Source: Nitrosarchaeum sp.
Lineage (GTDB): Archaea; Thermoproteota; Nitrososphaeria; Nitrososphaerales; Nitrosopumilaceae
DNA length: 64,000 bases
Direction of reading: 5' to 3'
Assembly (NCBI GenBank): GCA_021414365.1
Contig: JAIOOR010000005.1
Span: 124,001-188,000, forward strand
The position numbers and the translations under genes are program-made. Every line of letters begins with the position of its first letter. Within the stretch, counting starts at the first letter, position 1. Shown here piece by piece: positions 27,550 to 60,860 of the stretch. The notes under the pieces were generated by a model, which saw nothing but the letters and a program-made list of their open reading frames with translations, did no database searches and was not told the DNA's origin.

Positions 27550-28013
27550 GGGTTTGTTTTGTGGTTTGTTTTGTGGTTTGTTTTGTGGTTTGTTTTGATT
27601 AGGTTGATTTGTTTTGTGGTTTGTTTTGATTAGGTTGATTTGATTTGTTTTGTGGTTTGTTTTGATTAGGTTGATTTGTTTTGTGGTTTGTTTTGATTAG
27701 GTTGATTTGATTTGTTTTGTGGTTTGTTTTGATTAGGTTGATTTGATTTGTTTTGTGGTTTGTTTTGATTAGGTTGATTTGATTTGTGGTTTGTTTTGAT
27801 TAGGTTGATTTGATTTGTTTTGTGGTTTGTTTTGATTAGGTTGATTTGATTTGTTTTGTGGTTTGTTTTGATTAGGTTGATTTGATTTGTTTTGTGGTTT
27901 GTTTTGATTAGGTATTTGTTTTGTGGTTTGTTTTGATTAGGTTGATTTGATTTGTTTTGTGGTTTGTTTTGATTAGGTTGATTTGATTTGTTTTGTGGTT
28001 TGTTTTGATTAGG
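27550..28013. repeat. Minisatellite, about 36-bp unit with 12-bp sub-units
   Basis: A head-to-tail array. It starts with four copies of a 12-base unit (GGTTTGTTTTGT) near 27551-27590 and continues with about ten copies of a longer unit that adds GATTAGGTTGATTT. The unit length varies (24, 30 or 36 bases) because sub-units are lost or gained. The array covers the last third of the aldolase gene on the minus strand and its 3' flank. There are no spacers, so it is not a CRISPR. Confidence 0.92.
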
Positions 28014-41396: not shown

Positions 41397-41607
41397 CATT
41401 TAATATGATTAATTCACTATCAGAACATGTTGTAACTGGAAACACGAAATTTGATTCTGATGACACTTCATCAAATATTGGATTATGTATTTCTTCTAAA
41501 TAGGTAAAATCCTCAAAATTCAATATATTCATTCTAATATTCAACTTTAAATTTATTGCTTGCATCTCAGTCACAATATTATTACCATGATCTTCTTTAT
41601 TATACAT
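41389..41607 (-). CDS. Short hypothetical protein at island edge
   Basis: A 72-residue frame. Its ATG at 41607 overlaps the end of the HsdS remnant by 8 bases. The N-terminal half is polar, and the centre (LNFEDFTYLEEIHNPIFDEV) and an end rich in Ser/Glu look protein-like. It is not a known family and could be a relic of the region. It lies directly after the tandem repeat on the opposite strand. Confidence 0.35.
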   Translation of the reverse strand: MYNKEDHGNNIVTEMQAINLKLNIRMNILNFEDFTYLEEIHNPIFDEVSSESNFVFPVTTCSDSELIILNEN

Positions 41608-41986
41608 TCCCTACTAGAATTTCTCCTGAGATTAGTTTTGGAAGGAGAGAGTCTCGGATTTTTGACATCATTTCTATTTTTAGATTATTTTTTACAATAA
41701 TATCCAGAATGGAGCTGGTGATTTGATTAAAATTTTTTATTGTTGCGTCGTCAGGAATAATGAGAGAAAATGGTTCCAAGATACTCATTGTCAGATATTT
41801 TGTTGCGGTTCCAAAAGAAACTGATTGAAGATGCTCAAGAGATAATTCAATAGATCGTAATACATATGCATGTCCTAATTTACTTGATTTCTTAATTGTT
41901 ATGACATAAGTTCTTTGATAGACGTCAAACTTCCGCATCCAAAATATTTCAACATCGTTTAAACTAAAAGAGAAATAGGCAAACAC
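41600..41986 (-). pseudogene. Type I restriction specificity subunit (HsdS), C-terminal remnant
   Basis: The 128-residue product matches the end of HsdS: part of the second target-recognition domain (GTATKYLTMSILEPFSLIIP) and the closing helix with SKIRDSLLPKLISGEIL, which is a family hallmark. The first recognition domain and conserved spacer are missing, and there are no hsdM or hsdR genes beside it. The upstream part is replaced by vsr on the other strand (13 bp away). It is a relic of a type I system displaced or truncated when the present island formed. Confidence 0.75.
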
Positions 41987-41998
41987 ACTTGTAATGTC

Positions 41999-42403
41999 GT
42001 GGCAGACATCTTCACTCCTGAAAAAAGATCCTGGGTCATGTCAAGAATCAGGGGAACAAACACCAAGATTGATCTGATGATGAAGGACATGCTGATCAAG
42101 ACAGGCTACAAGTTCGAGATGTATCCAAAGATGTATGGTAATCCTGATTTTGTTCTGAGAAGAAGAAAAATAATCATCTACTGCGATGGTGACTTCTGGC
42201 ACGGATTCAAGTATGATGAAAAGAAAAAACCTTCAAAGAAATTCTGGAGAGACAAAATTCAGGGTAATATGAAGAGGGACAGGAGAATTACAAGACACTT
42301 GAGACGAAACGGATGGTCTGTTCTGAGGTTCTGGGAACATGACATTGAAAAAAACCCTGAAAAATGTAGCGCAAGAATTCTGAGAAAAATCAGAGAAAAA
42401 TGA
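41999..42403 (+). CDS. vsr: Very short patch repair endonuclease (Vsr)
   Basis: A 134-residue homologue of E. coli Vsr. Catalytic D50 is in GNPDFVLRRRK and H68 in CDGDFWHGF. The N-terminal ADIFTPEKRSWVMSRIRG signature and the C-terminal WSVLRFWEHDIEKNPE segment are both present. It nicks next to T:G mismatches that arise when 5-methylcytosine deaminates, so it accompanies cytosine methyltransferases. The 5-methyltransferase gene starts about 600 bp downstream on the same strand. The start is GTG at 41999. Codons ending in T and AGG/AGA are frequent compared with the core genes. Confidence 0.9.
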   Translation: MADIFTPEKRSWVMSRIRGTNTKIDLMMKDMLIKTGYKFEMYPKMYGNPDFVLRRRKIIIYCDGDFWHGFKYDEKKKPSKKFWRDKIQGNMKRDRRITRHLRRNGWSVLRFWEHDIEKNPEKCSARILRKIREK

Positions 42404-42407
42404 ATTG

Positions 42408-42775
42408 CTATTCTTCATGATATAGGGCAGTTTTGAACTTTTTTTCAAAAAATTCCATATGCTCTCTTGAAATTCCGCCATCAATTCCCCATCTGTGAAG
42501 ATTCATGTCGTAGACCTTCCGCAACACCTTGGCTGAGTCAAGAAGATAACCGTGTCTCTTGTATTGTGTTACTCCTGATCAAGTTCCCAAGATATGTTGG
42601 CATCTCGCTGATTTGGTCGCTTAAATTGCAACATGAACACTTTATTCAAATCTTTTAATTCATATCTCAAATCATACGATTCCTGCTTTTCTTTAATCCT
42701 GCTAATTGGGATTGCCTCCACATTGAATCCAAGTTTAGTAAAATAAGATATAATCTGCAGTGACGTAGATGACAT
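42408..42775 (-). pseudogene. Broken nuclease-like gene between vsr and the methyltransferase
   Basis: From ATG 42775 a 68-residue frame contains the segment FMLQFKRPNQRDANISWELD and then stops with TAA. A second frame (to TAG at 42408) continues with RHGYLLDSAKVLRKVYD and IDGGISREHMEFFEKKF. A nonsense change (TAA where a sense codon is expected) plus a one-base shift separates the halves. The QFKRP block looks like the QxK half of a PD-(D/E)XK nuclease core. It may be a dead partner restriction enzyme of the methyltransferase. Confidence 0.5.
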
Positions 42776-42999
42776 ATTCGTCTTCTATGGGATTCTCGCT
42801 CATCATTTTCAGTCCGAATGTTCATAGAAAAATCTGTCGTTCAAACATGATCATTCATGACCTTCTTGTTTTTGATATGCGCTGTATCAAATAATCCCCA
42901 CGTTGTCATGAAATAGATCGTTTCTACAAATTTTGATCAGATTGACAAACATGTCTATAAAGCATTCTTAAAATATGAACTATCCTAGAATTTCATAGT

Positions 43000-44073
43000 A
43001 TGGAAAGGTTACGTGCATTGGATCTATTTTCTGGTTGTGGCGGATTGAGTTTGGGTATGGAAAGAGCAGGATTTCAGGTTGTATATGCAAATGAGCTTAA
43101 TCAAGACGCAGCACTGACATACCAAAAGAATTTTCCTGACGTCCTAATGGATGTATGCGACATTAGAAAAATTGAACCTGACGATGTGAAAAGAAAAATC
43201 AAAAGCATGAAAATAGACTTGATAGGTGCAGGTCCGCCTTGTCAGGGATTTTCCACACTGGTGAAAAGAAATGTACGGGATCCTAGAAATGGTCTTTTTA
43301 GACACTTGGTGAGATTTGTGGAGTATTTTGCACCAAAGGCATTTGTGATGGAAAATGTCACAGGACTTCTTTCAATGAACAAAGGAAAAACAATTGAGAA
43401 CATCTGTGATGAATTTGAGAGCATAGGTTATCATGTGGCAGTTGACAAATTGCTTGCATCCGATTTTGGTGTGCCTCAGGACAGGACACGTGTCTTTATC
43501 ATAGGCACTACAAAAAAAATACCGCGAGTTGAATTATTCCCAAAGAAAAACGGGCATGCGAGAGTATCGGTGAAAAAGGCAATATCTGATCTTTCCTTTC
43601 TTGGAATTGGAGAATATGCAACAACGTATCAGAGGAGAACTTTCTCTGAATATCAAGTCATGATGAGAAACAACTGTGCAGTACTTGCAAACCATGAATC
43701 CGCAAATCACTCTGAACGTATACAGAAACGATTCATGATGATACCTCCAGGAATGGTTGCAAAAAAAATCAGCGGATATGATTCTGGAAAAAGGGACTGT
43801 TACAAATTTGATCCTTCTGAGCCAAGCAAAACTGTCACTACACTTCCTGAAGATTTCATACACTATCAACAAAACAGAATACCTACTGTAAGAGAACTTG
43901 CAAGATTACAATCATTCCCAGATGATTTTGTGTTTCTTGGTCCGAGAACTACTGGTGGAGCCCAACGAAAGCATTCATGTCCTCAATATACACAAGTTGG
44001 GAATGCTGTGCCACCACTTCTTTCACAAGAAGTATTTGCAAACATGAAAAAAATTCTCAAGAAATACTACTAA
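43000..44073 (+). CDS. DNA 5-cytosine methyltransferase (DISARM DrmMII-like)
   Basis: A 357-residue C5-methyltransferase. Motif I is LDLFSGCGG (8-16), motif IV PPCQGFS with catalytic C81, motif VI ENV (118-120), motif VIII QDRTRVFIIG, a short variable region, and motif X VGNAVPPLL near the C-terminus. It methylates cytosine using S-adenosylmethionine. It is followed by the DrmA-like gene 116 bp downstream on the same strand and preceded by vsr, the usual partner. As the only intact methyltransferase it would mark self DNA for the system. In described DISARM loci the class 2 methylase (DrmMII) usually lies after drmC, so the order differs here. Confidence 0.9.
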   Translation: MERLRALDLFSGCGGLSLGMERAGFQVVYANELNQDAALTYQKNFPDVLMDVCDIRKIEPDDVKRKIKSMKIDLIGAGPPCQGFSTLVKRNVRDPRNGLFRHLVRFVEYFAPKAFVMENVTGLLSMNKGKTIENICDEFESIGYHVAVDKLLASDFGVPQDRTRVFIIGTTKKIPRVELFPKKNGHARVSVKKAISDLSFLGIGEYATTYQRRTFSEYQVMMRNNCAVLANHESANHSERIQKRFMMIPPGMVAKKISGYDSGKRDCYKFDPSEPSKTVTTLPEDFIHYQQNRIPTVRELARLQSFPDDFVFLGPRTTGGAQRKHSCPQYTQVGNAVPPLLSQEVFANMKKILKKYY

Positions 44074-44189
44074 TTTTTTATATCTTGGTTTTGACCTAAC
44101 TGTTATGTTTATCCCCATGTTCTGTAGTTTTTTGTAAATAACTGTGAGATTACACAAAAAAGTTAAATGCAAAAAATCATTGTGAAGTT

Positions 44190-47100
44190 ATGAACTCATC
44201 TGATGTCCGTTCAGAGATGATTGTTGAATTTAAGAAATACATGATGGGCCCGCATTGGGGAAATGAAGAGATTATTGATTCTCCTCCAAAGTTTACATAC
44301 ATGGCAGGAATTCTTTTTCCACAAGACTCTGAAATTGAACAAGAAAACGTTGTTACTGAAGTAGGTGATGATTCTGAACCCGAGGTTTCTGATAAATCTG
44401 TGTTAAATTCTCTCAATCCCTCCTCGTTTGGATTAACATGTATGTTGGATAAAGGAACCGAAAATATCCAAGTAAAAATCGAATATGGAATTTATCTCAG
44501 TCAAAAAAACACGGAAACAAAACAAATTCTTTATGAACGACATCATTTTAATGACACATTCTCAATACCAACAACTAGAATTTTTACAAAAAATTTAGAA
44601 ATCTCGTTTGGAGAAATTAAAGCGTATTTTAGAAAGACCAAAACAGGAATTCTCTGCAGTGTTTATCTCATTAATACCCACAAAACATTTGATTCTGCCA
44701 AATCCAAAAATATAATATTTCAACCACGAATTGAGATTATTTCTGAGAAAAAACAGATTATTCATAGCGATGGAAATAATCTCTCAAACCTTCGAGGCTT
44801 GGATGATGATCTCTTTGATTTGATATTTGAAAGAAAGCGAAATTTTGGTTTTGGACATGGATGTGCTGTTTCTTGGGATGATACAGAAGTGGATGGAAAA
44901 AATATTGGACGCATTTGGACTGATTTTATTCCTGAATATGAACAAAAAAATATCAAACATGTTGATGCAGACGGAAATCTTGACTCTTGTGTTGACATGA
45001 AAAATTTGTCTGAAGTTAATGATTTTTCAAAATATTCTGATGTCTTGTTTGCTCTTCCTAATGCATATTCAAAGTGGATTAAAGAACAATTAGAAGATCG
45101 AATTGCTCTGATTGACAACAAAAGAACAGCAGAATCTCAAATTAAAAAATGCCGTGAGGCATATGAACGAATTAAAGAGGGAATTCAAATTATTTCTACA
45201 GATCCTGTTGCAGGAAAAGCATTCCAATTTATGAATAAAGTCATGCTAATACAGAGAATATGCTCTGAAACTGTTATGTTGAATCAGGCAAACAACAAAT
45301 TTGATCCTCCTATAATCGAAAATGCATCAGGAAAATGGAGGCTTTTTCAAATTGGTTTCATCTTAATGAATGTCAAAAGTTTTCTTTCTGAAAAAAATAC
45401 CGCAAAAAATATTGAGGGGAAAAATATCGATGAAAACAATATTCGCGAATCTAGGGAAATTGCGGATTTGTTGTGGTTTCCGACTGGTGGTGGTAAAACT
45501 GAAGCTTATCTTGGAATCATAGCATTTGCAATGGCAACCAGAAGACTCTCTGCCCCTAAGAACCAAGGAGTTCCAGACATCAGTGCATATGGTGTTTCTG
45601 TTCTTATGAGGTATACTCTGAGATTACTGACTATCCAACAATTTCAAAGAGCCGCAACACTAATGTGTGCATGTGAATATGTCCGAAGACAATCTCCTGA
45701 TGTCTGGGGCACTGGACAATTTCTAGTGGGATTGTGGGTAGGATTATCTGCAACTCCAAATACTCTTAGAGGTTTGGATGATCGTTTTTCTGCAGAACAT
45801 GTTATTCTTAGATCACGAAAAACTGGAAAAATTCCTGAAGAAAATAATCCCATGCAATTACTGAATTGTCCTTGGTGCGGACATGATTTGGATGCATTTT
45901 GTTATGAATTTAATGAAGATCGTGATTTTAATCTCCCTGAACGCCTAAGGCTGTATTGTAAAAATAAAAAATGTTTCTTTCATAGGAATAACCGAATCAA
46001 CTCTGGTGCTGAGGTCGGCATTCCTATCTTGACTGTAGATGAGGATATTTACAAGTGGTGTCCTTCATTATTGATTTCAACTGTGGATAAATTTGCACAG
46101 ATTACATGGAATGAAAAAATTGCATCATTATTTGGTAAAGTGAATAAATTCTGTAATAAGGACGGATTTCTGGACAATCTAAAAACTGGTGATCATAAAA
46201 AAGGTACCAGTGATGAAAAAACCCACTCTTATTTTTCAATTGAAAAACTTAATCCTCCTGATCTGATAGTCCAAGATGAGCTTCATCTAATTTCAGGACC
46301 TATGGGAACTTTAACTGCTCTATACGAAACCGCGATTGATTACTTTTGTAAAAATAAAAAAAGAGACATGCGGCCAAAAATTATTGCTTCAACTGCTACT
46401 ACCAAATCTGCCAGTTCACAAATTGACATACTATTCAACAGGAAAGAGACAAAAGTTTTTCCACCTCAAGGGTTTGAGTTTGGAAAGACTTTCTTTTCTG
46501 ATGTTGATTTAACCTCACCTGGAAAAATATTTCTTGGTATTTCTCCCACTGCAAGAAGTCAGCTTACCATCCTTGCGATGTCTGCTGCATCTTTTATGAG
46601 AAAAATCCGGCATCTAAAAGATTCAGGAATTTCTCCTGATTTGCTAGATCCTTACTATACTCTGATTGCTTATTTTAACAGCAAACGCGAATTGGGAGGA
46701 GCATACGGTACATTTTCAGACACTGTTCCTGATTACTTCAACCAAATTTTCAATAATGTAGAACAAAGAAAATCTTATGCTCCTACTGAACTTTCAAGTC
46801 TTACAAAAGAAGAAGAATCAAAAACAGAAGAAGAAATATTGGCAGAAAATCCTGAAATAAAATATCTTGACAATAAATTAATGGATTTTGAAGAGTTAAC
46901 CAGCAGACAAAATTCTGGCGAAATCCCTGACATATTAAAAAAATTGTCAAATCCTTTACCTAAAGCGCTTGATTATCTACTCTGCACAAATATGCTATCC
47001 GTAGGTGTAGATATTCAAAGATTGGGGCTAATGATTGTTAATGGACAACCAAAAAATCATTCTGAATATATTCAAGCTACAGGAAGAATTGGCAGAAAAC

Positions 47101-47696
47101 ATCCTGGATTGATACTGACAATTTACAATTCGTTAAAACCACGAGATTTATCTCATTTTGAAAATTTCAAACTATATCATTCAGCATTCTTCAAATACGT
47201 TGAACCTATCAGCATAACTCCTTTTGCGTCAAGAGCACGAGATAAAGGATTATTTGCAATATGTGTGGGGATGCTTAGGAACATGGTTCCTTTAATTGCA
47301 AAAGAACCTGGCAATTTTGAAATGGGTCTTCTTGACATCCGTAATGCTGTTTCTGAAATTAAAGCAGAATTCAGAAAGAGGGTTGATGAAACTGATAGAG
47401 ATCAGTTGGAAGACACTCTCCAAGAAATAGATGATTACTTAGAAGCATGGGCAAAACATGCAAGCAAAACCAGTCCAATGTCATTGAAATACAGATCAAC
47501 ATCATATACAACAAAAAAAGAAAGAGAAACCACAAGATTCCTTTTAACAACAGTGGAGGGAGGAGGCCATTCATTAGATGGAATTCCAAAGAGTCCGATG
47601 TCTTTAAGAGATGCAGAGCAGATGCATGACGTTTATTTTTATGAATCTCTTGATTCCAATGCCAAAGATTTGGAGGAGGATGAACTTGAAAACTAA
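44190..47696 (+). CDS. drmA: DISARM helicase DrmA-like
   Basis: A 1168-residue SF2 helicase. An N-terminal region of about 420 residues precedes Walker A PTGGGKTEAY (431-440). The DEAH-equivalent box is QDELH (695-699), and the C-terminal RecA domain carries SVGVDIQRLGLMIVNGQP and the motif VI QATGRIGR. A cysteine cluster around CPWCGHD...CKNKKCF sits between the RecA domains. The PTGGGKTEAY and QDELHLISGPMGT segments are what I associate with DrmA of DISARM. The protein overlaps the DUF1998 protein by 17 bp. It opens the operon, with promoter-like sequence at 44076-44189. Confidence 0.85.
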   Translation: MNSSDVRSEMIVEFKKYMMGPHWGNEEIIDSPPKFTYMAGILFPQDSEIEQENVVTEVGDDSEPEVSDKSVLNSLNPSSFGLTCMLDKGTENIQVKIEYGIYLSQKNTETKQILYERHHFNDTFSIPTTRIFTKNLEISFGEIKAYFRKTKTGILCSVYLINTHKTFDSAKSKNIIFQPRIEIISEKKQIIHSDGNNLSNLRGLDDDLFDLIFERKRNFGFGHGCAVSWDDTEVDGKNIGRIWTDFIPEYEQKNIKHVDADGNLDSCVDMKNLSEVNDFSKYSDVLFALPNAYSKWIKEQLEDRIALIDNKRTAESQIKKCREAYERIKEGIQIISTDPVAGKAFQFMNKVMLIQRICSETVMLNQANNKFDPPIIENASGKWRLFQIGFILMNVKSFLSEKNTAKNIEGKNIDENNIRESREIADLLWFPTGGGKTEAYLGIIAFAMATRRLSAPKNQGVPDISAYGVSVLMRYTLRLLTIQQFQRAATLMCACEYVRRQSPDVWGTGQFLVGLWVGLSATPNTLRGLDDRFSAEHVILRSRKTGKIPEENNPMQLLNCPWCGHDLDAFCYEFNEDRDFNLPERLRLYCKNKKCFFHRNNRINSGAEVGIPILTVDEDIYKWCPSLLISTVDKFAQITWNEKIASLFGKVNKFCNKDGFLDNLKTGDHKKGTSDEKTHSYFSIEKLNPPDLIVQDELHLISGPMGTLTALYETAIDYFCKNKKRDMRPKIIASTATTKSASSQIDILFNRKETKVFPPQGFEFGKTFFSDVDLTSPGKIFLGISPTARSQLTILAMSAASFMRKIRHLKDSGISPDLLDPYYTLIAYFNSKRELGGAYGTFSDTVPDYFNQIFNNVEQRKSYAPTELSSLTKEEESKTEEEILAENPEIKYLDNKLMDFEELTSRQNSGEIPDILKKLSNPLPKALDYLLCTNMLSVGVDIQRLGLMIVNGQPKNHSEYIQATGRIGRKHPGLILTIYNSLKPRDLSHFENFKLYHSAFFKYVEPISITPFASRARDKGLFAICVGMLRNMVPLIAKEPGNFEMGLLDIRNAVSEIKAEFRKRVDETDRDQLEDTLQEIDDYLEAWAKHASKTSPMSLKYRSTSYTTKKERETTRFLLTTVEGGGHSLDGIPKSPMSLRDAEQMHDVYFYESLDSNAKDLEEDELEN

Positions 47697-49530
47697 AAAT
47701 GCAGGACAAATTCGCAGCAGTGAGATTATTACAACTTATGGACCTGGCGCCATTTTTAATGGAAAAGAAGGTGTCAGTGTAATGATATTGGGGTTAGACG
47801 CATGGCCAGAAGCATTTGAGAGTGAAGATGAATTATCAAAATTCAAATCAATTCATAACAAGTTTCTTGAAGATGTTTGCAAAAAAGATCATTTTAGAAT
47901 GCCTTTAAATGATGGTGGGTTTGGTGGCGGTGTTCCATGTACTGTTTTTCCTTCTTGGGGTTATTGTGAATTTTGTAAAACAATGGCAGAGGTTACAGGA
48001 AAGCCTGATGATGAAAAAGGATACTATGTTTGCAAATTCTGTCAAAAGGACTATGGATACAAAAATAAAATTCTTCCAGCAAGACTGATTTTGTTATGTG
48101 ATTATGGCCATGTGCAGGATTTTCCATGGGTAGAATGGGCTCACAGTAAAACAAAATGGCAAGAGGCTGGATTCTGTGATGCCCCTGTTGTAAGATGGAC
48201 ATTTGGAAAAGGTGGAACAACATTGTCTAATTATAAAGTAAAATGCAAAACATGTGGAAAATCCCGTACAATGTTTGGTGCAACTGAACCCATTTTAGAT
48301 CCATTGCCTAGTAAAGATGGAAAAATCTTGGAATTGACATGTAGCGGTAATGCTCCCTGGCTGGGTAAAAAAATTATGTGTCCTCCAAAAAATTCTGAAT
48401 CCAGAGAAAAAAAATTTATGAAAGGTAACCATGTACGTGCATCTAACATGTATTTTCCAATGATAATATCTGCACTGCAAATACCAAGATTTCAAAATCC
48501 AATACAAAAAAATATAGATGATCCTAATAACAAATCCGTAATTAATTATTTGATAAAAAAGGGAACTTCTTTTAAAGACATTGCTGCAGATGAATCACTG
48601 GGTTTTTCTAAAATCGAATCTAGCTTACCTAAAATTGTAGATGAACTTGAATACCGATTTAATGATCATGTGAATGATGAAGATGGAATAAAAAACAGGG
48701 AATACAATGATTTAATTCGTAATGCCGATATTGATTACAAAGAAAACAAAACAATATCGATTAATGATGTTCCAATTCACACTGAGCTCCAACCGTATAT
48801 TTCTAAAATAAAAAGAATTGACCGCCTTACAATGATTAAATCTGTAAGGTTTTTTACTAGAGGTAAAGCCCCTGATCCGTATGATTATACTAGCACAATT
48901 GACAAGAATACTGCTTGTAAAATTTCAAAGAGTAGTAAAATCAACTGGCTTCCTTGTGTGGAAACTCAAGGTGAAGGAATATTTTTTACATTAAATGAAG
49001 AAAGAATCAAAGAATGGGAAAAATCTGCAAATGGCAGATGTAAAAAAATAATTGATTCTTATGCTGAGTTTAATTCCAAAAGAGGATGGACTGGAAATGT
49101 TTCATCCAAGTATATTTTGTTACATACTTTAGCACATGCACTGATCAGAGAATTAGCATATAACTCTGGATATGGTGAATCTTCAATCAGTGAAAGAATT
49201 TATTCTGATGAAAAATCAAACGCAATTTTACTTTATACGTCATCTAATTCCAGTGAAGGCAGTCTTGGTGGAATAGTCAGAAATTCTACTCCTGATGAGT
49301 TCCTGATGACTGTAAAAGGGGCTATAAACAAATCAAGGTTTTGTTCGAGGGATCCACTTTGTATCGAGTCTGATTTGGATGAAGGTCCAGTACATACAAG
49401 ACTTAATGGGTCTGCATGTTATGCTTGTACTCTGTTGCCTGAGACAAGTTGTGAGAATTTTAATCGATTGCTAGATAGAAAAATTCTTGGAGATGAAAAA
49501 CTAGGTTTTTTTGGTGCCTTGAATGAATAA
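47680..49530 (+). CDS. drmB: DISARM DUF1998 protein, DrmB-like
   Basis: A 616-residue protein with N-terminal SSEIITTYGPGAIF. Several CxxC zinc knuckles (CEFCKT, CKFCQK, CKTCGK) lie in the first half. The C-terminal DUF1998 domain has the motif LHTLAHALIRELAYNSGYG (about 480-500), CSRDPLC and a closing CYACTLLPETSCENFN. DrmB forms a complex with DrmA in described systems and helps in DNA engagement. The start is the ATG at 47680, with a strong GGAGGA site just before it inside drmA. The next gene overlaps its end by 8 bp. Confidence 0.85.
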   Translation: MNLKTKNAGQIRSSEIITTYGPGAIFNGKEGVSVMILGLDAWPEAFESEDELSKFKSIHNKFLEDVCKKDHFRMPLNDGGFGGGVPCTVFPSWGYCEFCKTMAEVTGKPDDEKGYYVCKFCQKDYGYKNKILPARLILLCDYGHVQDFPWVEWAHSKTKWQEAGFCDAPVVRWTFGKGGTTLSNYKVKCKTCGKSRTMFGATEPILDPLPSKDGKILELTCSGNAPWLGKKIMCPPKNSESREKKFMKGNHVRASNMYFPMIISALQIPRFQNPIQKNIDDPNNKSVINYLIKKGTSFKDIAADESLGFSKIESSLPKIVDELEYRFNDHVNDEDGIKNREYNDLIRNADIDYKENKTISINDVPIHTELQPYISKIKRIDRLTMIKSVRFFTRGKAPDPYDYTSTIDKNTACKISKSSKINWLPCVETQGEGIFFTLNEERIKEWEKSANGRCKKIIDSYAEFNSKRGWTGNVSSKYILLHTLAHALIRELAYNSGYGESSISERIYSDEKSNAILLYTSSNSSEGSLGGIVRNSTPDEFLMTVKGAINKSRFCSRDPLCIESDLDEGPVHTRLNGSACYACTLLPETSCENFNRLLDRKILGDEKLGFFGALNE

Positions 49531-50275
49531 AAAACAAAGAGACACAATAAACTCCATCTGTAAAAAATTAGGAACTTCAAAAACAAAATTTTTAGTTGAT
49601 AACATACGAAATCATATCAAAGATGAAATCTCAGTTATTGAAATACAAGAATGGACTAGGTTGAGTCCTCAATACTCAAAAGAGGTTGTAGATTTGATTA
49701 GGTCTTTTGAATGTCATGAATCCATTTGCATTGCATTAGAGATGCAAGATGAAATGTATTCTGATAAATTGAAGGACAGTACTAGTACACGACTTGTAAT
49801 GACTAGTCCTATAACTGGAAACAGAATTGGACACACTCTTGGAAATTTTAGGAAAATTATTGAAACTGCTAATAAAGAAATCATTTTGGTTGGTTATGTT
49901 TTTAATAATATTGAAGGTCAGATGGATCCAATAATTGAATCCCTAATGTCTGCAACATCTAGAGGGATCAATGTAAAGATATTTTTTGAAAAAGGTGCAT
50001 CTGCCAAAACACTTAACAATATTTGGAAAAAAAACAAAGAGTCTGTACCTCCAGAATTATTTGTTTACAAACGAAAAGACAAGAACAGCGTATTACATGC
50101 AAAAGTTTTGATAAAAGACGATGATGTCATTCTTGTCACCTCTGCAAATATGACTGGAAGTGCGATGGAAACCAACATCGAATTTGGAATTTTACATGAG
50201 GGCAAACTTGCAATGGATGCAAAAAAAATGCTGTATGATTTAATTGAGAAAGGATACATGGTGAAGGACAATTGA
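49523..50275 (+). CDS. drmC: DISARM PLD-domain protein, DrmC-like
   Basis: A 250-residue protein: an N-terminal helical part (residues 1-90), then a phospholipase-D/nuclease domain with one HKD-type motif, HAKVLIKDDDVILVTSANMTG (from about residue 192), and the strand METNIEFGIL. A single HKD motif means it probably works as a dimer. DrmC carries this domain in DISARM and is not always needed for defence. It overlaps drmB by 8 bp and meets the next gene at TGATG. The active-site pair H...K and the asparagine are present. Confidence 0.85.
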   Translation: MNKKQRDTINSICKKLGTSKTKFLVDNIRNHIKDEISVIEIQEWTRLSPQYSKEVVDLIRSFECHESICIALEMQDEMYSDKLKDSTSTRLVMTSPITGNRIGHTLGNFRKIIETANKEIILVGYVFNNIEGQMDPIIESLMSATSRGINVKIFFEKGASAKTLNNIWKKNKESVPPELFVYKRKDKNSVLHAKVLIKDDDVILVTSANMTGSAMETNIEFGILHEGKLAMDAKKMLYDLIEKGYMVKDN

Positions 50276-53200
50276 TGCCAATTCCAGATGACTATTCGAT
50301 GGAATCCACTAATCGAGAGATGTGTATTAAATTCTTTAAGAAATTATTTACCCGAGATGAATTAAAAGAAGAAATTCAGAAGTTTTCCCCTGAGAAGTTA
50401 ACAAAAAAATCAAACGTCAAGTATCAGAAAAATAGAAAGTCCTTTTTTGAGATATTGAAAATACAAGAAATTAACGATGAAACAAAACTTGCTGCTATAT
50501 TATATGATTTGTTAGGACCCCATTTTTTGTATGAAGTACAGGGCGTAGGATCCATGGATAAACATTCTCAAATGATTCGATATGATATTTTCAAAAAGGC
50601 AATTGAACTAAAATGGTTTAGTCTTGATACCGTTAGTAAAGTATCTGAATCATTATCAAAAATTGGTAAAATTACAAAACTCGAGGAAATAAATTCATTA
50701 CGAATACCAGGGCCATGGCAACACAAATTATTAGAATTGTTGTCAAATGATCTACCTTCTGAAACTGTCGAAGCTCCATCCAAACCTGAAGAATCAAAGC
50801 AAAACATGGAAGTAATTACTGCTATAAGAGAACTTTTACCTCTTCATGATTATCAAATTTTTGCCGGAAAGAAAATTAGAGATTTGCTAGTAGAGTCAAA
50901 AAATATCAGAAAGAGACTTTTGATTTCAATTCCAACCGGTGCAGGCAAAACAAGACTCGTAGCTGAATCTTTGATTGACTGGTTAAATGATGGAAAACCT
51001 TCGGATGATCCGAAAATTCATAATTCAAAATACATGGTATGGATTGCACAGAGCAGAGAATTATGTGAGCAGGCAATATCTCAATTTAATGAAATTTATT
51101 CTCAAAAAGGAAAATCGGCATTAACTGTTTTCCGATTGTTTGGGACTCACAATATAACTTTGGAAACAGTGTTGGCACAAAGAGTTGAACATGGTCTAAT
51201 CGTTTGTACTATTGATAAAATCTATGAACAAATTAATGATAAAACTACTCTTTCAGAATTTAATGCAGACTATTTCCAAAATAATATAGAATACGACGAT
51301 AGAGTTCTCAATAGTAATCTTCCGCAAAAATACTATGATGATTGGGCATTTGGAAAATTACGCAGTGTAACTTCCTGTGTGATTGTAGATGAAGCCCATA
51401 AGGCCATCATGCCTATGTATACCTGTGTTCTCAGAGGGTTGGGGTTCAATTTTAAATTTACAGCAGATGAGAATAAGTGCAATGAGGCTGGAATCACACT
51501 GGTCGGACTCACTGCAACGGCATTTAGGGGAACAGGGTTAGAACGCTCCAGAAAAGTAACAATTGGTAAACATTCTGAAAATAAGGTTCACTTGATTTCA
51601 AATGACACTGGGAGTGAAAAGCATACCGAAGTTGAGTTTCCAATCAACTGCGCCGAATGTAACAAACCTCTTCTAGAAGGTGAAGAAGTTCTACAAGCAA
51701 CATCTAACAATAAAATATTATGGCACAAATATGAACAAAAACTCTCTGCTGAAACAGAAAGAATTTACACCCGATTCAATATCCCCTTAATCCCAAAAAT
51801 ATACGGATTTCAAGAAAACAAAAAACCTCGAGCAATCATAACTTGTAATGAAAAATTTGTAGCAAACAATCCTATACGAATAAGCGGTGAAAAATCATAC
51901 GATTTACTTGGAAGTATTGTCAAGTATTCTTGGAGTATTGAAAGGAAATCAAACTTGATAGAAGTTTTTGGGATGGGTGAAATAAAAGAAATAAAAGTAC
52001 ATCCTAAATCTTTGCCAACAATTGTGGAGGAATTGAAAGAGCCTGGCACTTATTTGATCAGCCTCACAGTTGAAAACTATGATGGACTTACAGATACTGC
52101 AATCAAAGTTGTTGAAGTAATCCCAGATCAACAAATCGAGTCAAGTAATGAAATGAAAGATCTTATAATGAATTTAATTAAACGTGAAATTTTATGTGAA
52201 GTGTTTCATACATCGATCAAAAGTGGGAAAATAGGAATAGCAGAAAAAAAAAGTATTGACATATTAAATCAAATACGAAAACAAGCTGCAGAAAACGACG
52301 AAAGAAACGAGAAACTAGTAAAAATAATTCATTATCTAACTACAAAACCACAAGAAAAAAGGAAAAAAATTTTGGTCTTTGCTTGTGATATTTTGCATGC
52401 AAGATTTCTTGTAATGTGGTTAAAAACAAAATATGATATTTCTGCAGATTATGTGGATTCACAACTCCATGAAAGTAGAAACATATCTCGAATTAGAAAA
52501 TTCAGGGAAAAATCAAACGAACAATGCAAGATCCTAATTAACACTAACATGTTGACTACCGGATTTGATGTTCCTGATGTTGATTGTGTGATAATGGGGA
52601 GACCCGTGATCAGCACAGTGGAATATACCCAAATGATAGGTAGGGGAATGAGAGGCCCACGAATGGGAGGAACCCGGGAAGTCTGGATAATTGATTTTGA
52701 TGATCAAGTACAACTCAGCGAACATATGGAAAATCAGACAATTCCACTAGGTTGGAAATCCATGGCTTATGATAATGAAAACAAACTATTGTGGAAACCA
52801 CTGACTGATAAAAAAGACAACCATGGGAATCCCTTAAATCTTGACATCGACATAACGAATGAAAAAGATGTTTTGGGAGGAAATAAAACAGACGATGAAA
52901 ATAAAGACTTTTCAATAAAATGTAGATCATGTACAAAATCATCTATTGGATTTTTAGAAATATCTAGAGATTATGACTTGACTAAGGATGAAAAAGAAGA
53001 TTTGACATTATTCATAGAGAAACGTATTGCTCCAAAGTTTCCTGTATTGAAGATTTGTAAACAATGTAAAGATGAGATCAACATATGGCCAGAATCAAAT
53101 AACCCTTGGAAGAATTTAATTGTTAAAGAAAAATCCAACCCTGTATTATTACAACTAATAAAATTTATTGCTAAAAATTATGATGGAAATTTGAAGATAG

Positions 53201-54492
53201 ATACCACAAAAATATTTGATGTTGAATATACTGTTAAAAGTATTTTAGAATATGTCTATCCTGATTTAGGCTTTAATCAACTTAGAAAAGAACTAGAGGC
53301 ATTTCAAGAAGATGATTACAAAATTTTAAAAGATATGATTCAAAACGCAAAAGAAAAAATAGAGAAAGAGAGATTGGTGACATTTTTTACAAATTATTTG
53401 ATATTACAAAAAAACATTTCAATGACTCAAAAATTGATAGCATTATGTAATCACTATCTTGATCTTGATGTGCTAAAAAATGCAATTTTAGAAAAAAAAC
53501 ATAGCATAGAAGAAACACATCCTCTTGATGAAAGACTACGCAGTAAAACAAAAACCGTCATCTTTGATAAATTGGGTTACATTCCAGAAGAACAAACATT
53601 CAAAGAAAATGTGGGTAATGTTCTCTATGATTTTATGTTAAAAAAATACCTAACTTACAATAGGTTTCAAGTGGCTATACATATCAATGAATATGTGATT
53701 AAACTACGTGAAAGGAGCTCATGTCTGAATGAGGTAATTTCCATTTACAATAACAGACAACAGCCACTAGTAATTGAATATCTAATGCAAAATATTCCTA
53801 ATTTTAAATTAAAAATTAACGCAAATTTTGATACTGTTGAAAATTTTATGCAGATAACTGAACAAATTACCAGATCTATAAAAGATGCAAATAGACCTGT
53901 TGATTTTACACAACTCAAAAATGACTATGAGTTAGTTAAATCACAAACACCATGGACACCTTCCACAGAAGAGATTTTTCGTCATAGTAAGCTGGGAATT
54001 GGTTATTACATAAGATATGCTGGAAGTATTGCAAACTTTCAAAATGTCTATGAATTAAATGATGATATAAAACGCACGAATTTGGAAAAATTAAAAAATA
54101 AATTTTTTGAGATCAAGGGTGTTCTCAAAAAAATTCCAGACGAAGAAACAATGAAAAAACATTCAATATATTCGGAAGTCATGCAATCATTATGGTTTAC
54201 CACCTATGAGGATTTTTTGAAATTTTTGGGTCAGAATCCTACCGAAATGAAACCGTCTAACGTAGAATATGCAAAAGAATCTAAAAATGAATTGATTATA
54301 TCTGCAAAGGCAATGGCTGACAAGAATGGAATGCAGGAATTATTTGAAAAAATTGTTCGTGAACCTGAATTGAAATTTCTTGTACACTTTGGAAGCATGG
54401 AAAAATTCATAGAAGCAGTATTTCCAAATAACAAACAAATCGCATTAATGAGGTGGAAAGATATTAAAAATAAATCTAAAAAATTGCTCTGA
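50275..54492 (+). CDS. Large SF2 helicase with zinc-like and PKD-like inserts
   Basis: A 1405-residue protein, fourth gene of the defence operon. Residues 1-190 are helical. The RecA1 domain has Walker A IPTGAGKTR (about 217-225) and DEAH box VDEAHK (near 372). A cysteine pair CAECNKP (about 458) starts a LIM-like patch. Residues about 515-618 (RAIITCNEKFVANN..., WSIE..., TYLISLTVENYDG) read as a PKD-like beta domain between the two RecA domains. RecA2 has NMLTTGFDVPDVD and motif VI QMIGRGMRGPR (about 755-800). Two CxxC pairs (882, 928) and 475 helical residues follow. It is unlike the SNF2-type DrmD or the DrmE of known DISARM classes. The ATG at 50275 overlaps the drmC stop. Confidence 0.8.
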   Translation: MPIPDDYSMESTNREMCIKFFKKLFTRDELKEEIQKFSPEKLTKKSNVKYQKNRKSFFEILKIQEINDETKLAAILYDLLGPHFLYEVQGVGSMDKHSQMIRYDIFKKAIELKWFSLDTVSKVSESLSKIGKITKLEEINSLRIPGPWQHKLLELLSNDLPSETVEAPSKPEESKQNMEVITAIRELLPLHDYQIFAGKKIRDLLVESKNIRKRLLISIPTGAGKTRLVAESLIDWLNDGKPSDDPKIHNSKYMVWIAQSRELCEQAISQFNEIYSQKGKSALTVFRLFGTHNITLETVLAQRVEHGLIVCTIDKIYEQINDKTTLSEFNADYFQNNIEYDDRVLNSNLPQKYYDDWAFGKLRSVTSCVIVDEAHKAIMPMYTCVLRGLGFNFKFTADENKCNEAGITLVGLTATAFRGTGLERSRKVTIGKHSENKVHLISNDTGSEKHTEVEFPINCAECNKPLLEGEEVLQATSNNKILWHKYEQKLSAETERIYTRFNIPLIPKIYGFQENKKPRAIITCNEKFVANNPIRISGEKSYDLLGSIVKYSWSIERKSNLIEVFGMGEIKEIKVHPKSLPTIVEELKEPGTYLISLTVENYDGLTDTAIKVVEVIPDQQIESSNEMKDLIMNLIKREILCEVFHTSIKSGKIGIAEKKSIDILNQIRKQAAENDERNEKLVKIIHYLTTKPQEKRKKILVFACDILHARFLVMWLKTKYDISADYVDSQLHESRNISRIRKFREKSNEQCKILINTNMLTTGFDVPDVDCVIMGRPVISTVEYTQMIGRGMRGPRMGGTREVWIIDFDDQVQLSEHMENQTIPLGWKSMAYDNENKLLWKPLTDKKDNHGNPLNLDIDITNEKDVLGGNKTDDENKDFSIKCRSCTKSSIGFLEISRDYDLTKDEKEDLTLFIEKRIAPKFPVLKICKQCKDEINIWPESNNPWKNLIVKEKSNPVLLQLIKFIAKNYDGNLKIDTTKIFDVEYTVKSILEYVYPDLGFNQLRKELEAFQEDDYKILKDMIQNAKEKIEKERLVTFFTNYLILQKNISMTQKLIALCNHYLDLDVLKNAILEKKHSIEETHPLDERLRSKTKTVIFDKLGYIPEEQTFKENVGNVLYDFMLKKYLTYNRFQVAIHINEYVIKLRERSSCLNEVISIYNNRQQPLVIEYLMQNIPNFKLKINANFDTVENFMQITEQITRSIKDANRPVDFTQLKNDYELVKSQTPWTPSTEEIFRHSKLGIGYYIRYAGSIANFQNVYELNDDIKRTNLEKLKNKFFEIKGVLKKIPDEETMKKHSIYSEVMQSLWFTTYEDFLKFLGQNPTEMKPSNVEYAKESKNELIISAKAMADKNGMQELFEKIVREPELKFLVHFGSMEKFIEAVFPNNKQIALMRWKDIKNKSKKLL

Positions 54493-54494
54493 TT

Positions 54495-55370
54495 TTAAAA
54501 ACCCTTTATCTTTTCAAGCATCTTCTGCATTTCATCTGTAAACCATTTTTTAAATCGTAACGGTTCATCAGAAAATTGATGGTACATATCAAGAAATAAT
54601 CTTGCATCATCCCCTATGGGTATTCTTAAATCAGAAGAAGGATCGGTGACACATTTGAGTATTATTTTTGCAACATCTTCTGGGGTGTTGTTTGTTACAT
54701 CAAAGAGTTTTTTTGCTATTGTATTCCATTCATTTACTATGTTCATGTACGGTGAATTATCTTTAATGATGGTTTTTGTATTCTTGAAAAAATTAGTTTT
54801 AACAACACCTGGTTCTATTATGTTGATCTTGATTCCTTTGTCTGATACTTCATCAAACACACATTCAGAAAGTCCTTCTAATGCAAATTTAGATGCGATG
54901 TATGCTGACGCATAAGCAAATGGTATTTTTCCTGCTATGGAACTTACATTAACAATATTGCCTCTAATCCCGTTTTCATTCACCTCTTGTTCTCTCATGA
55001 TGGGTATTGCTTTTTTCATCATTATTATGGGTCCTAAAAAGTCAGTTCTCCATTGCAAGTTAAAATCTTCAATATCTACATCCTCCAAAGAACCCATGAT
55101 CATAAATCCTGCATTATTGATCAATACATCAAGTCGCTTTTTTTCAGAAATAATTTTTTCAAATGTTTTGTTTATTGTGTCTAACTTTAACACATCGAGT
55201 TCTATTACCTCAAGTGATAGGTTTTCTTTATTGGCTAATTCCTCCAGATCACGTCCTTTTGATACGTTTCTCATGGACGCAAAAGTATGAAATCCGGCCC
55301 GTGCAAATTCTAAAGAAGTAGCCCTACCAATCCCGCTAGAACATCCTGTTACTAGAGCTATTTTTTGCAA
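54495..55370 (-). CDS. Short-chain dehydrogenase/reductase (SDR)
   Basis: A 291-residue classical SDR. The N-terminal nucleotide motif is TGCSSGIGRAT, the NNAG motif INNAGF, catalytic serine in VNVSSIAGK and the YxxxK pair in YIASKFALEG. Substrate unknown; such proteins reduce or oxidise small alcohols and ketones with NAD(P). It converges with the defence operon, 2 bp from its end. It may belong to the island or to the host side; codon use is not decisive. Confidence 0.88.
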   Translation of the reverse strand: MQKIALVTGCSSGIGRATSLEFARAGFHTFASMRNVSKGRDLEELANKENLSLEVIELDVLKLDTINKTFEKIISEKKRLDVLINNAGFMIMGSLEDVDIEDFNLQWRTDFLGPIIMMKKAIPIMREQEVNENGIRGNIVNVSSIAGKIPFAYASAYIASKFALEGLSECVFDEVSDKGIKINIIEPGVVKTNFFKNTKTIIKDNSPYMNIVNEWNTIAKKLFDVTNNTPEDVAKIILKCVTDPSSDLRIPIGDDARLFLDMYHQFSDEPLRFKKWFTDEMQKMLEKIKGF

Positions 55371-55480: not shown

Positions 55481-56884
55481 TCAAATCTGGTATTTTTTAG
55501 CTTCTTCTATGAGGGTTAGGTTTTCTGTGATCTTTTTGTATGCATCTGGGTGTTTTGTATGTACAGGAAATAGCATCTTTGCGTCTATCTCAGATACAGC
55601 ATTAATCAAGTCCTGACCTCTGGCATGTCCTGAGCAATGACTCTGAAACTTATGCATGCCAAAATGATTGATCCATGCATCCATTCTTTCTTGAGATATC
55701 TCTTGTTCTTCATTGTATGGCTCTGATGCTGAATGGATGTATCTTGCACCCGGCTTTACTTTCATGTCAATCAATGCAGTAAAACTGTAAAACCCGATTG
55801 CACACAGTGCCTTGTTTGGTCTTGCAGAAATCTGTTCTGCGGTCCAGCAGTTATGAAGGTCAACAAATTCCTTGTCATTTCCCTTGTAATCCTTGTCAGA
55901 ATAAGTTCCTGTTCCCCTTTTTGGAAGATAAATGATGATGTCCTCGTCGTCAATGTTTGGAACCGAGAGATGTTTGTCCTGTGACAAATATTTCAGAAAA
56001 TACGCATCATTGATCTTTACTACAAACTTTCTACCAGTTTCTTTTGCAATGTTGTAAAATGTCATAAGCCTATCCACATCCTTGAAATTAAAATCTGCAA
56101 AAACCAAGTTATCTGACTCGCTTACCGTCTTCTTTGATTGGTCATAGACTAGTTTTTCAGATTCCTCTTTTTCCTTGTCTGCAATTCTAGTTCCTTCTGT
56201 GATTAGTGCGATTGGTTTTACTTCTTTTGCTCGTTTGATAAAATCTGTTGTCATCTCTGAATGAGTTCCATGCAATCTAATATCACCAGTATATGCTATT
56301 GGACCTTCTGATGTCCAAATTATAAAACCATATGCTCCTGGAACTGAATGATCAACATGAATTGGTTCAACTTCAAGTGATCCTATTTTGAATTTGTCTC
56401 CAGTTCTAAACTCGTTGACTTTTCTTTTGATTGGTGCATCCTTGATATTATATGGTCTTGGTTTGTAATCTAGAATTTCTCGTTCAATGCTCCGTTGTCC
56501 TCGTTCTGCTATTGCTTTAAGAATAAGATGACAAGCTGCGCCCATATGAATTGGAATATCCTCGTGTAAAAACGAAATATAGTCTGCATGATCCGCGTGT
56601 GCATGAGTTAGTAACACTGCATCAATTTCAGGCGTTTCAGGTTTTCTTCCTGCCATGACCATGAGATCATCACGATAAACTCCTTGTATGTCTGGGACTA
56701 GTCCCATAGTTAGAAAATCAACTATGCCATTTGATGTTCTGGGATTGAGATATTCCTCAAAATATGTAGCCCTGCGTGAGAATGATTTGCCAAAATCTAG
56801 GAATATTTTGGTGTCTTTATCTTGTAATAGAATTTTGTTGCCACCAATTTCATTTACACCGCCGTAGAAAGTAAGACTAGTCAA
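55481..56884 (-). CDS. Beta-CASP metallo-beta-lactamase, RNase J-like
   Basis: A 467-residue metallo-beta-lactamase/beta-CASP nuclease. The metal motif is LTHAHADHADY (HxHxDH, residues 94-101), VDHSVPGAYGF carries a further histidine, and GDIRLHG holds an aspartate. The beta-CASP domain ends in FQSHCSGHARGQDL and FPVHTKHPDAY, motif C. It is close to archaeal RNase J, a 5'-3' exonuclease in RNA decay. There is no KH domain, unlike the aCPSF1-type. It follows the Mrr-type gene on the same strand by 9 bp, so they are probably co-transcribed. Confidence 0.85.
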   Translation of the reverse strand: MTSLTFYGGVNEIGGNKILLQDKDTKIFLDFGKSFSRRATYFEEYLNPRTSNGIVDFLTMGLVPDIQGVYRDDLMVMAGRKPETPEIDAVLLTHAHADHADYISFLHEDIPIHMGAACHLILKAIAERGQRSIEREILDYKPRPYNIKDAPIKRKVNEFRTGDKFKIGSLEVEPIHVDHSVPGAYGFIIWTSEGPIAYTGDIRLHGTHSEMTTDFIKRAKEVKPIALITEGTRIADKEKEESEKLVYDQSKKTVSESDNLVFADFNFKDVDRLMTFYNIAKETGRKFVVKINDAYFLKYLSQDKHLSVPNIDDEDIIIYLPKRGTGTYSDKDYKGNDKEFVDLHNCWTAEQISARPNKALCAIGFYSFTALIDMKVKPGARYIHSASEPYNEEQEISQERMDAWINHFGMHKFQSHCSGHARGQDLINAVSEIDAKMLFPVHTKHPDAYKKITENLTLIEEAKKYQI

Positions 56885-56893
56885 TGTGTATTT

Positions 56894-57892
56894 CTAATCC
56901 TCTTCCACTATAGTCCAAATTCGTTTTAATGGTAATTCTGCCTTTAATTCATCAGAAAATTTTTCATAATGCTTTAAGATTTCTTCTACAACTTTTCCTG
57001 AATCCCATAACCTTGTGGAGAAAAATGATCTGCCAATTTCTTGATCTGCAATCTTTGTTAATCCTCCCCATGCAACCATAATTCCATACTCGGCTCTAAA
57101 GCTTTTAGCGACTCCTTCCAATTCACGCAATACTTTGACATCTACAGGAGATTTGGATGATTTTACTTGAATACAAATTTTTGGATTATCAAATCCTAGA
57201 GGACCAGAACCCGCCAGTATGTCGACTCCTCCGTCTGGACCAGGTGGAGAAATTTTTGTAACATAACCTTGAACTTTCAGTAACTCATCTATTAAACTAG
57301 CAAGTGAGTGACCAGAAAATTTTGCTTCCAGATATTTCATTAGTTTATCTTTTGCCATTTGTTCTAAATCAAAAGTTAATTCATCAACTTCTTTTTCTAT
57401 TGTGGATATGGAGACTGATTTTTCGCCTTTGAGCATTTTTCTGACTCGCTCTTCTGCATCATCCCGTCGAACTCTTCCTACTGTAAGAAATGCACCCAAT
57501 GAAAATAAAATATCTTGATCAAATTCTGATCTTGGTATTGTCTTTAACCATTTTACACCTCTAATGTGTTTTATGTTGCCAGCGATTTCTTTGTACTCGT
57601 AATCTCCACTAATTTCCCCAATGGCTATTGCCGATTGGGTCTTTAGTGGCAAAGCAACTAAATCGCCTTTTTTGATTTTTGTTAGAAAACTCCAAATTTG
57701 ACCCACTCGATTTACCTTCTGCATTTTCTTTTCGTTGGGATATGTTTTTGAATAAAGTTCTTCAAGATCTTCTTTTTCTTTAATGCCAGATAATGATGGA
57801 AGTTCGTCCCAACCAATAGCAACTAGATTATGATTTAGAGCACCTTGTTCTTGTTCTCCGTATCTTCCTGCTCTAACTAACCATAATGTCAT
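56894..57892 (-). CDS. Mrr-type restriction endonuclease-like protein
   Basis: A 332-residue protein. The N-terminal half (1-190) carries a regulatory/DNA-binding region (VRAGRYGEQEQGAL, KGDLVALPLKTQSAIAIGEI). The C-terminal Mrr_cat PD-(D/E)XK domain is at about 195-300, with GPDGGVDILAG for the Asp and CIQVKSS for the QxK residues. Such enzymes cleave methylated or foreign DNA. Followed by the RNase J-like gene (9 bp). It may act with the nearby cytosine methyltransferase as part of the island's defence, though the same type also occurs alone in archaeal chromosomes. Confidence 0.83.
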   Translation of the reverse strand: MTLWLVRAGRYGEQEQGALNHNLVAIGWDELPSLSGIKEKEDLEELYSKTYPNEKKMQKVNRVGQIWSFLTKIKKGDLVALPLKTQSAIAIGEISGDYEYKEIAGNIKHIRGVKWLKTIPRSEFDQDILFSLGAFLTVGRVRRDDAEERVRKMLKGEKSVSISTIEKEVDELTFDLEQMAKDKLMKYLEAKFSGHSLASLIDELLKVQGYVTKISPPGPDGGVDILAGSGPLGFDNPKICIQVKSSKSPVDVKVLRELEGVAKSFRAEYGIMVAWGGLTKIADQEIGRSFFSTRLWDSGKVVEEILKHYEKFSDELKAELPLKRIWTIVEED

Positions 57893-59196: not shown

Positions 59197-59913
59197 TTAA
59201 AATTTAATCAAGATAAATGTTGTATCATCATTCTCAATTTTATTATGTATTCTAATCGTTTCAACAAAATCATTTAATTTTGAATTATTTCTAATGATTT
59301 TTTTCCATGGTTTTTGTCCTTTATTAGAAGAATCTAAAAACCATTTTGAAAATGCGTCTGTTGCCATAAGGATTACATCATCATTTTTTATGATCCATTC
59401 AGCATAGAGAAATTCTGTTTTTTGATTTTCTATAAATGAAGATATTGCAGGAGTTCTAAAGCTGAATCCTTCTACTTTTTTAATTGGAAAAAGATTAATA
59501 ATTTTTTTATCACGAATTTGGAAAATATTTGTGTCCCCTATTGCCCAAATAGATATTTTTTTGTTTTTCTTACTCTTATTGATCTTACAACCTAAAAATG
59601 TTGCAGCAGAACCATTTTCTTTTGCCACATCTAATATCATCGGGTTTACATTTAGTTTAGAAATCTCTTCCTCGAATTTCAATTTTGCCGATTTGAGCCA
59701 TCTTTCTAAAAACACCTCATCGGGTTTTGGAGAGTTAAATGGATTTTGAATAAACTCATCTACAATCTTCTTCGACCAAATATCTGAAAACGATGATCGT
59801 GAAACCCCATCAGATAATGCAAACACATCTTTTTGGATACTACAATGATAGTAATCTTGATTAGATTTTTTATCTTCTCCAATTTTTTGAATGGTAAAAG
59901 GAATGACTTCCAT
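59197..59913 (-). CDS. PP2C-type serine/threonine phosphatase (TerY-P triad)
   Basis: A 238-residue phosphatase with the PP2C metal residues spread over three motifs: ALSDGVSR (D35), AIGDTNIF (near 126), VILMATDAFSKW (about 175-186) and NDDTTFI at the end. It is a compact form, slightly shorter than the usual 250-300 residues. Together with the VWA gene (35 bp upstream) and the kinase gene next in line it makes the TerY-P triad. In the tellurite/stress-response literature such triads are inferred to control by Ser/Thr phosphorylation. Same strand, one operon. Confidence 0.85.
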   Translation of the reverse strand: MEVIPFTIQKIGEDKKSNQDYYHCSIQKDVFALSDGVSRSSFSDIWSKKIVDEFIQNPFNSPKPDEVFLERWLKSAKLKFEEEISKLNVNPMILDVAKENGSAATFLGCKINKSKKNKKISIWAIGDTNIFQIRDKKIINLFPIKKVEGFSFRTPAISSFIENQKTEFLYAEWIIKNDDVILMATDAFSKWFLDSSNKGQKPWKKIIRNNSKLNDFVETIRIHNKIENDDTTFILIKF

Positions 59914-59947
59914 CGAGTTATCATGTGGTTATGTTTTCATGAAATCA

Positions 59948-60838: not shown

Positions 60839-60860
60839 ACCTCAAGAAATTATAAATTGA

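Follow-up and report, generated by a model that had tools for sequence, protein, structure and literature searches.

The 64,000-nucleotide stretch of Nitrosarchaeum sp. DNA analysed here (contig JAIOOR010000005.1, positions 124,001 to 188,000; hereafter the window) carries an operon built around the core genes of the DISARM antiviral systems. Five intact open reading frames (ORFs) follow one another on the forward strand: a C5 methyltransferase, drmA, drmB, drmC and a gene for a 1405-residue superfamily 2 (SF2) helicase (Table 1). An earlier note on this DNA had described the same five genes, at these positions and with these overlaps, and every one of the ORFs proved intact there. The drmA and drmB genes overlap by 17 base pairs (bp), counted from the drmB ATG at 47680 (the longest drmB ORF begins at 47611), drmB and drmC by 8 bp, and drmC and the helicase gene by 1 bp, or by 4 bp with the TTG at 50272 as start. 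Such overlaps suggest that translation is coupled from drmA through to the helicase. Because 116 bp separate the end of the methylase gene from the start of drmA, the methylase may or may not be co-transcribed with drmA. The host is a marine ammonia-oxidising archaeon, a thaumarchaeon whose relatives in genome searches come from the Nitrosopumilaceae and Cenarchaeaceae.

Judged by their profile matches, the three genes that span 44190-50275 are genuine drmA, drmB and drmC. DrmA scores 966 bits against NCBIfam NF038325 (cut-off 950) and 772 bits against the PADLOC DrmA model, and both the FPTGGGKTEAYLG and VQDELHL motifs are present. DrmB reaches 415 bits against NCBIfam NF038324 (cut-off 240), and its DUF1998-type zinc module is detected as Pfam MZB (PF09369), above cut-off. 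The earlier note had allowed that DrmA or DrmB might fail to match their models; both clear the NCBIfam cut-offs. Its calls of DrmA-like, DrmB-like and DrmC-like proteins agree with the DISARM profile models in all three cases, with DrmC recognised by PADLOC (105.6 bits, E 9e-31, with many PADLOC DrmC models matching) and also matching NCBIfam NF038319, at 110 bits and so under its equivalog cut-off of 133. DrmC also matches Pfam PLDc_2, and its one HKD motif, HAKVLIKDD at residue 192, is intact.

The fourth gene encodes neither DrmD nor DrmE. No DrmD or DrmE match to the 1405-residue helicase was found at E 0.1 in PADLOC or NCBIfam, and this absence is meaningful because genuine DrmD and DrmE proteins score well there: in NCBIfam a genuine DrmD (locus L160) gave 1371 bits and a genuine DrmE (L156) 524 bits (cut-off 80), and the DrmD control was recognised by PADLOC also. 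With these positive controls both identities are ruled out, and the earlier note's view that the fourth component fits neither DISARM class holds. Pfam detects ResIII, DEAD, Helicase_C and PKD in the protein; the best NCBIfam match is RadD, covering the RecA2 part only. Alignment with homologues shows helicase motifs I, II and VI to be intact. The whole insert between RecA1 and RecA2 measures ~230 residues and includes a PKD-like sandwich; PKD and PKD_4 score near or under the Pfam cut-offs in each protein, yet recur across the family members scanned. PF18780 was found in the C-terminal part of two helicase homologues (genomes G196 and G247). An AlphaFold2 model of residues 1-860 has RadD and a related DNA-repair protein as its best PDB matches. 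A plain RadD identity is ruled out by the tree (98/94) and by the architecture. Two further candidates were rejected: a nuclease domain at the C-terminal end (neither a motif nor, for the weak model, a fold match was seen) and a hidden phospholipase D (PLD) fold in the N-terminal domain (model all-helical).

Table 1. Features of the operon and its fourth protein (window positions)
Feature	Position	Strand	Description
Vsr	41999-42403		
C5 cytosine DNA methyltransferase	43000..44073	+	357 residues; PF00145, 239 bits; possible self-marking enzyme, system membership uncertain
drmA	44190..47696	+	YprA-family SF2 helicase, 1168 residues, short-form DrmA
drmB	47680..49530	+	DUF1998/MZB zinc-module protein, 616 residues
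drmC	49523..50275	+	single-HKD phospholipase-D-type nuclease, 250 residues
Fourth gene	50275..54492	+	1405-residue SF2 (RadD/ResIII-type) helicase
Helicase N-terminal all-helical domain	50317..50827	+	residues ~15-185; conserved in family
Helicase RecA1	50830..51540	+	residues 186-422; Walker A GAGKT at 222, DEAH at 372
PKD-like beta-sandwich insert between RecA domains	51787..52122	+	residues ~505-616; from alignment, beta strands in model
Helicase RecA2	52225..52770	+	residues 651-832; motif VI YTQMIGRGMRG
Invariant CxxC...CxxC module behind helicase core	52921..53067	+	residues 883-931; from alignment
Helicase C-terminal helical extension	53068..54489	+	residues ~932-1405; homing-endonuclease-associated-repeat-like units

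We searched for relatives by scanning 84,980 species for a short motif and by sampling 250-400 genomes, among these a gene-order search of 250 genomes, with Actinomycetota left out of the drmA survey. In the gene-order search and the motif scan the long helicase was found in thaumarchaea only. Four further thaumarchaeal genomes (G196, G247, G391 and AG-426-M08) carry a drmA-drmB-(drmC)-helicase block, the repeated linkage that the earlier note had proposed to look for. Gene order in G196 is identical to that in the window; in G391 we infer a single locus from two contigs, one with the start of drmA and the other with its end, drmB, drmC and the helicase; and the AG-426-M08 helicase is a shorter family member of 1012 residues. 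The helicase adjoins drmC in three of the five loci. Since DrmA, DrmB and the helicase are only 28-47% identical between loci, the linkage is old. In the 400-genome sample, four of the nine genomes of the class that carry DrmA have the helicase beside drmA. The DrmAs of the five helicase-linked (type A) loci form one clade with support 100/100, and the closest pairings, the window with G196 and G247 with G391, are common to the DrmA tree and the helicase trees. Searches of IMG/VR, phages and plasmids gave only partial SF2 matches; no virus or plasmid was found to carry the long helicase family. Solo helicases at L025-L031, in Cenarchaeum-like thaumarchaea, are C-terminally shortened; those at L028-L031 share neighbour genes, which suggests domestication.

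Outside the thaumarchaea, the closest kin of the helicase are helicases of Dnd (phosphorothioate) loci that adjoin a GHKL ATPase and a PLD protein, and most of the best relatives examined in the plasmid comparison were of this kind. One thaumarchaeon (G080) has a similar helicase/PLD/GHKL trio adjoining genes that read as dnd-type. In the tree, Dnd-linked and drm-linked helicases stand together, separate from RadD (98/94). When the Dnd helicases are omitted, drm-linked helicases and solo copies make up one clade (98/94); a single clade of all drm-linked helicases is lost once the Dnd helicases are added, though it is not rejected (p-AU 0.26). PbeA, of an archaeal phosphorothioate defence, joins an HKD/PLD nuclease and an SF2 helicase in one protein (PMC10853773, PMC6459918), and drmC plus the helicase gene look like a split form of it. 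The modular use of such parts was already known, because modules of MORC/GHKL, SF2 helicase and nuclease were recognised in restriction systems in 2008 (PMC2292703). We found no literature description of GHKL/helicase/nuclease modules paired with DrmAB.

Helicases of the wider clade also stand with drm genes. In Cenarchaeum (G189) a shorter helicase accompanies drm genes and a dual-HATPase (GHKL) protein, a second G247 locus has a shorter helicase with drmA, and in Asticcacaulis and Nocardia GHKL and helicase are fused in one ~1575-residue protein near drmA and drmB. Other architectures were seen along the way. In Cenarchaeum-type genomes, L120:4102-14069 and L119:2749-12391 show a second DISARM-like arrangement of dual-HATPase (GHKL), drmA and a 614-residue ResIII helicase; both loci lie near Vsr, and at L120 drmB and drmC were identified and a C5 methylase is present. 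The bacterial drmA-drmB loci L033:1-11395 (Asticcacaulis) and L043:6599-18554 (Nocardia) have a UvrD/GajB-like helicase, and their ~1575-residue protein joins a sacsin-like GHKL domain to a ResIII helicase. The Cenarchaeum-type genome G247 (3.2 Mb) holds three different DISARM-like loci (L119, L022, L159), and at L126:8218-14802 a 2194-residue ORF joining DrmA-like and DrmB-like parts adjoins a small PLD gene and an RNase J-like gene.

The operon fits best as a variant of DISARM, and there is a good case for regarding it as a candidate third class. On the strength of its gene content and kinships, it is probably a DISARM-family antiviral system of a third kind, in which a RadD/PbeA-like helicase replaces DrmD or DrmE and acts with DrmC as a translocase-nuclease arm. 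It also seems fairly likely that marine and sponge-associated thaumarchaea hold a third DISARM class, whose DrmAB core took over the helicase-PLD(-GHKL) effector module of Dnd defences. As the core, DrmA and DrmB would recognise foreign DNA, with exposed single-stranded ends the most likely site, move along it, and mark or open it; host DNA would be spared through modification where a methylase is present. In a class 1 DISARM system from Serratia, DrmAB loads on and prefers unmodified 5'-overhang DNA and is less active on methylated DNA (PMC9142583), a preference that we propose, by analogy, for the window operon as well. DrmC and the helicase may together form a translocase-nuclease arm that corresponds to a PbeA split in two, perhaps in a complex in which the helicase docks via the PKD-like insert, the zinc module and the C-terminal helices. 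The helicase could pull DNA past the PLD nuclease DrmC, or it could strip the invader's replication machinery. Such an arm would be common to Dnd and DISARM defences and here coupled to DrmAB.

Several observations weigh against this interpretation. The structure models of the helicase are weak, with a mean predicted local distance difference test score (pLDDT) of 61 for residues 1-860 and of 50 for the C-terminal part, where the all-alpha model is uninformative. The window helicase has no PbeA model match at E 0.1, and only its relatives match, at 31-62 bits. The G247 operon runs drmA-drmB-helicase with no recognisable drmC, so the drmC-helicase pairing is not absolute. In AG-426-M08 the helicase lies on the opposite strand, in a separate unit convergent to drmC-drmB-drmA, and truncated solo copies occur without drm genes in the thaumarchaeal stretches examined (L025-L031). 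The last two points, together with the many defence genes mixed in these islands, would suit an arrangement in which drmABC makes up a minimal form of the DISARM core, and the large helicase is a defence or repair gene in its own right that happens to lie next to it in a defence island. We consider such a chance association improbable, as the window helicase overlaps drmC by one base, five genomes share the neighbourhood at 28-47% identity, the DrmA and helicase trees give matching pairings, and distant helicases of the wider clade accompany drmAB in Cenarchaeum, Asticcacaulis and Nocardia. Alternatively, the helicase may be a functional substitute for DrmD, clearing DNA of proteins for DrmAB as a remodeller or translocase and taking no part in nuclease action by DrmC. 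Like DrmD it is an SF2 motor, the G247 operon lacks drmC, and drmC has been reported dispensable in other DISARM systems, including a class 1 system in which DrmC did not co-purify (PMC9142583). However, DrmD belongs to a different SF2 family, the helicase adjoins drmC in three of the five loci and Dnd-linked relatives adjoin PLD genes; we regard a substitute of this kind as unlikely, if still worth keeping in mind.

The role of the methylase can be weighed apart from that of the helicase. The earlier note took the adjacent C5 methylase for the system's own, moved upstream, and here it fared less well: the best PADLOC model is the generic MTase_II (357 bits, versus 202 bits for DrmMII), and the methylase type varies among type A loci. 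It is C5 in the window and of N4/N6 type in AG-426-M08; in G196 an N4/N6-type methylase stands with an MvaI/BcnI-family endonuclease as a separate restriction-modification pair; and no methylase was seen beside drmA at the G391 locus. The C5 methylase and Vsr may therefore form a separate Dcm/Vsr or decayed restriction-modification unit, with the DISARM variant using DNA ends as its sole cue for self versus foreign, a serious possibility that in our estimate falls just short of probable. A gene relic sits between Vsr and the methylase, and 18 of 101 family genomes have Vsr, in most cases with no drmA, both of which argue for it; the methylase nevertheless lies on the same strand 116 bp upstream of drmA, a C5 methylase and/or Vsr is found near drmA in many other loci, and a methylase is typical of DISARM operons. 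A separate unit would concern the methylase alone and is compatible with a third kind of DISARM. Vsr was rejected as a specific DISARM marker, being common in family genomes without drmA. As for the relic (42450-42960, reverse strand), a 56-residue piece of it is 74% identical to an intact 198-residue ORF, of unknown family, in G194 (L219:1432-2028).

Other genes surround the operon. Convergent with the helicase is a short-chain dehydrogenase gene (54495-55370, reverse strand), and the loci of G196, G247 and G391 each have a diverged short-chain dehydrogenase (33-39% identity) at the corresponding position. The RNase J-like beta-CASP gene at 55481-56884 (reverse strand) has close homologues (at least about 60% identity) sporadically, in 9 of 61 family genomes; most of the homologous loci examined adjoin defence genes (type I restriction-modification, Dnd-type, GmrSD-like or DISARM-like), and the gene may be a marker or a member of a defence hotspot. 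Also on the reverse strand are a C-terminal fragment of a type I restriction-modification specificity subunit adjoining Vsr (41600-41986), an Mrr-type endonuclease that matches candidate defence family PDC-S02 at 433 bits (56894-57892), and a consecutive PP2C phosphatase, von Willebrand-like protein (recognised by eye, no Pfam match) and protein kinase that resemble a TerY-P signalling triad (59197-62144). No Rfam families were found in the 36-64 kb segment of the window. Further away, an aldolase ORF (27666-28799, reverse strand) has its 3' end formed by a 36-bp tandem repeat of 12.8 copies (27577-28015), which encodes Asn/Gln/Lys/Pro-rich repeats. Integrase-like ORFs, recognised by eye, in islands L127, L210 and L215 hint that some defence islands are mobile.

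We found no literature description of DISARM in Nitrosopumilus or Thaumarchaeota, or of a third DISARM class. Many DISARM-like classes are still uncharacterised according to the one broad survey we found (Bell et al., PMC12458937), whose main text has no thaumarchaea, RadD or drmAB(C)-helicase class. Models of the DISARM classes demand DrmD with DrmMI or DrmE with DrmMII (PMC9252829), and the thaumarchaeal loci would escape them. The roles of DrmD and DrmE in DISARM have been listed as open (PMC9142583). Here their slot would be filled by a motor of another family, and because the kin of this helicase work with PLD nucleases in other defences, the fourth gene may encode an effector motor for the nuclease step. 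If this is true, DISARM would be a sensor core that takes interchangeable effector motors (DrmD, DrmE or PbeA-like), and DISARM and Dnd systems would be linked through module exchange. The operon may also offer an entry point to the antiviral defence of ammonia-oxidising archaea.

Compared with known systems, the window has the core features of DISARM: DrmA, DrmB as a separate adjacent gene, and DrmC with its HKD motif. As in class 1 (drmD, drmMI, drmA, drmB, drmC), drmA, drmB and drmC are present and adjacent, and the short-form DrmA model scores above cut-off; unlike class 1, the window lacks a SNF2-type DrmD and DrmMI, and its fourth gene is a RadD/ResIII-type helicase. No ORF for a DrmMI adenine methylase was seen among the ORFs located at 36-62 kb, read from sequence, and none of the eight proteins scanned matched one, while a DrmMI control (1359 residues) was recognised at 1666 bits. 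Class 2 (drmE, drmA, drmB, drmC, drmMII) has the same core genes, and the window has a C5 methylase nearby as well, but DrmE is missing, the methylase scores higher with generic Type II models than with DrmMII, and the gene order differs. ARMADA, BRIGADE, TALON and Druantia (PMC12458937) likewise have a YprA-family helicase at their centre, whereas in the window the helicase and the DUF1998 canopy are in separate genes, as in DISARM. ARMADA, whose YprA helicase and DUF1998 canopy are fused and come with BrxHII-like and PglX-like genes, does not fit the window, where no BrxHII-like or PglX-like partner was found.

The comparison with PbeABCD and the Dnd-linked helicase modules centres on the fourth gene. 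The window operon showed no identifiable Dnd genes, nor an ABC or a GHKL ATPase, and neither the PbeC ABC ATPase nor PbeD (DndE) was seen among the same ORFs at 36-62 kb, as read from sequence, or the eight scanned. The helicase belongs to the same wider clade as those of the Pbe and Dnd modules (98/94 from RadD), and the link to a PLD nuclease is common to both sides, fused in PbeA and a separate gene in the plasmid Dnd loci and in the window; the window helicase differs in being coupled to DrmAB and in having a PKD-like insert and a long C-terminus. The repair helicase RadD is among the best solved-structure matches and supplies the NCBIfam match to the RecA2 part. The trees nevertheless separate RadD from the window helicase (98/94), whose family is linked to drm genes and has a linker of ~150-230 residues with the PKD-like insert, compared with ~35 residues in most RadD-like outgroups.

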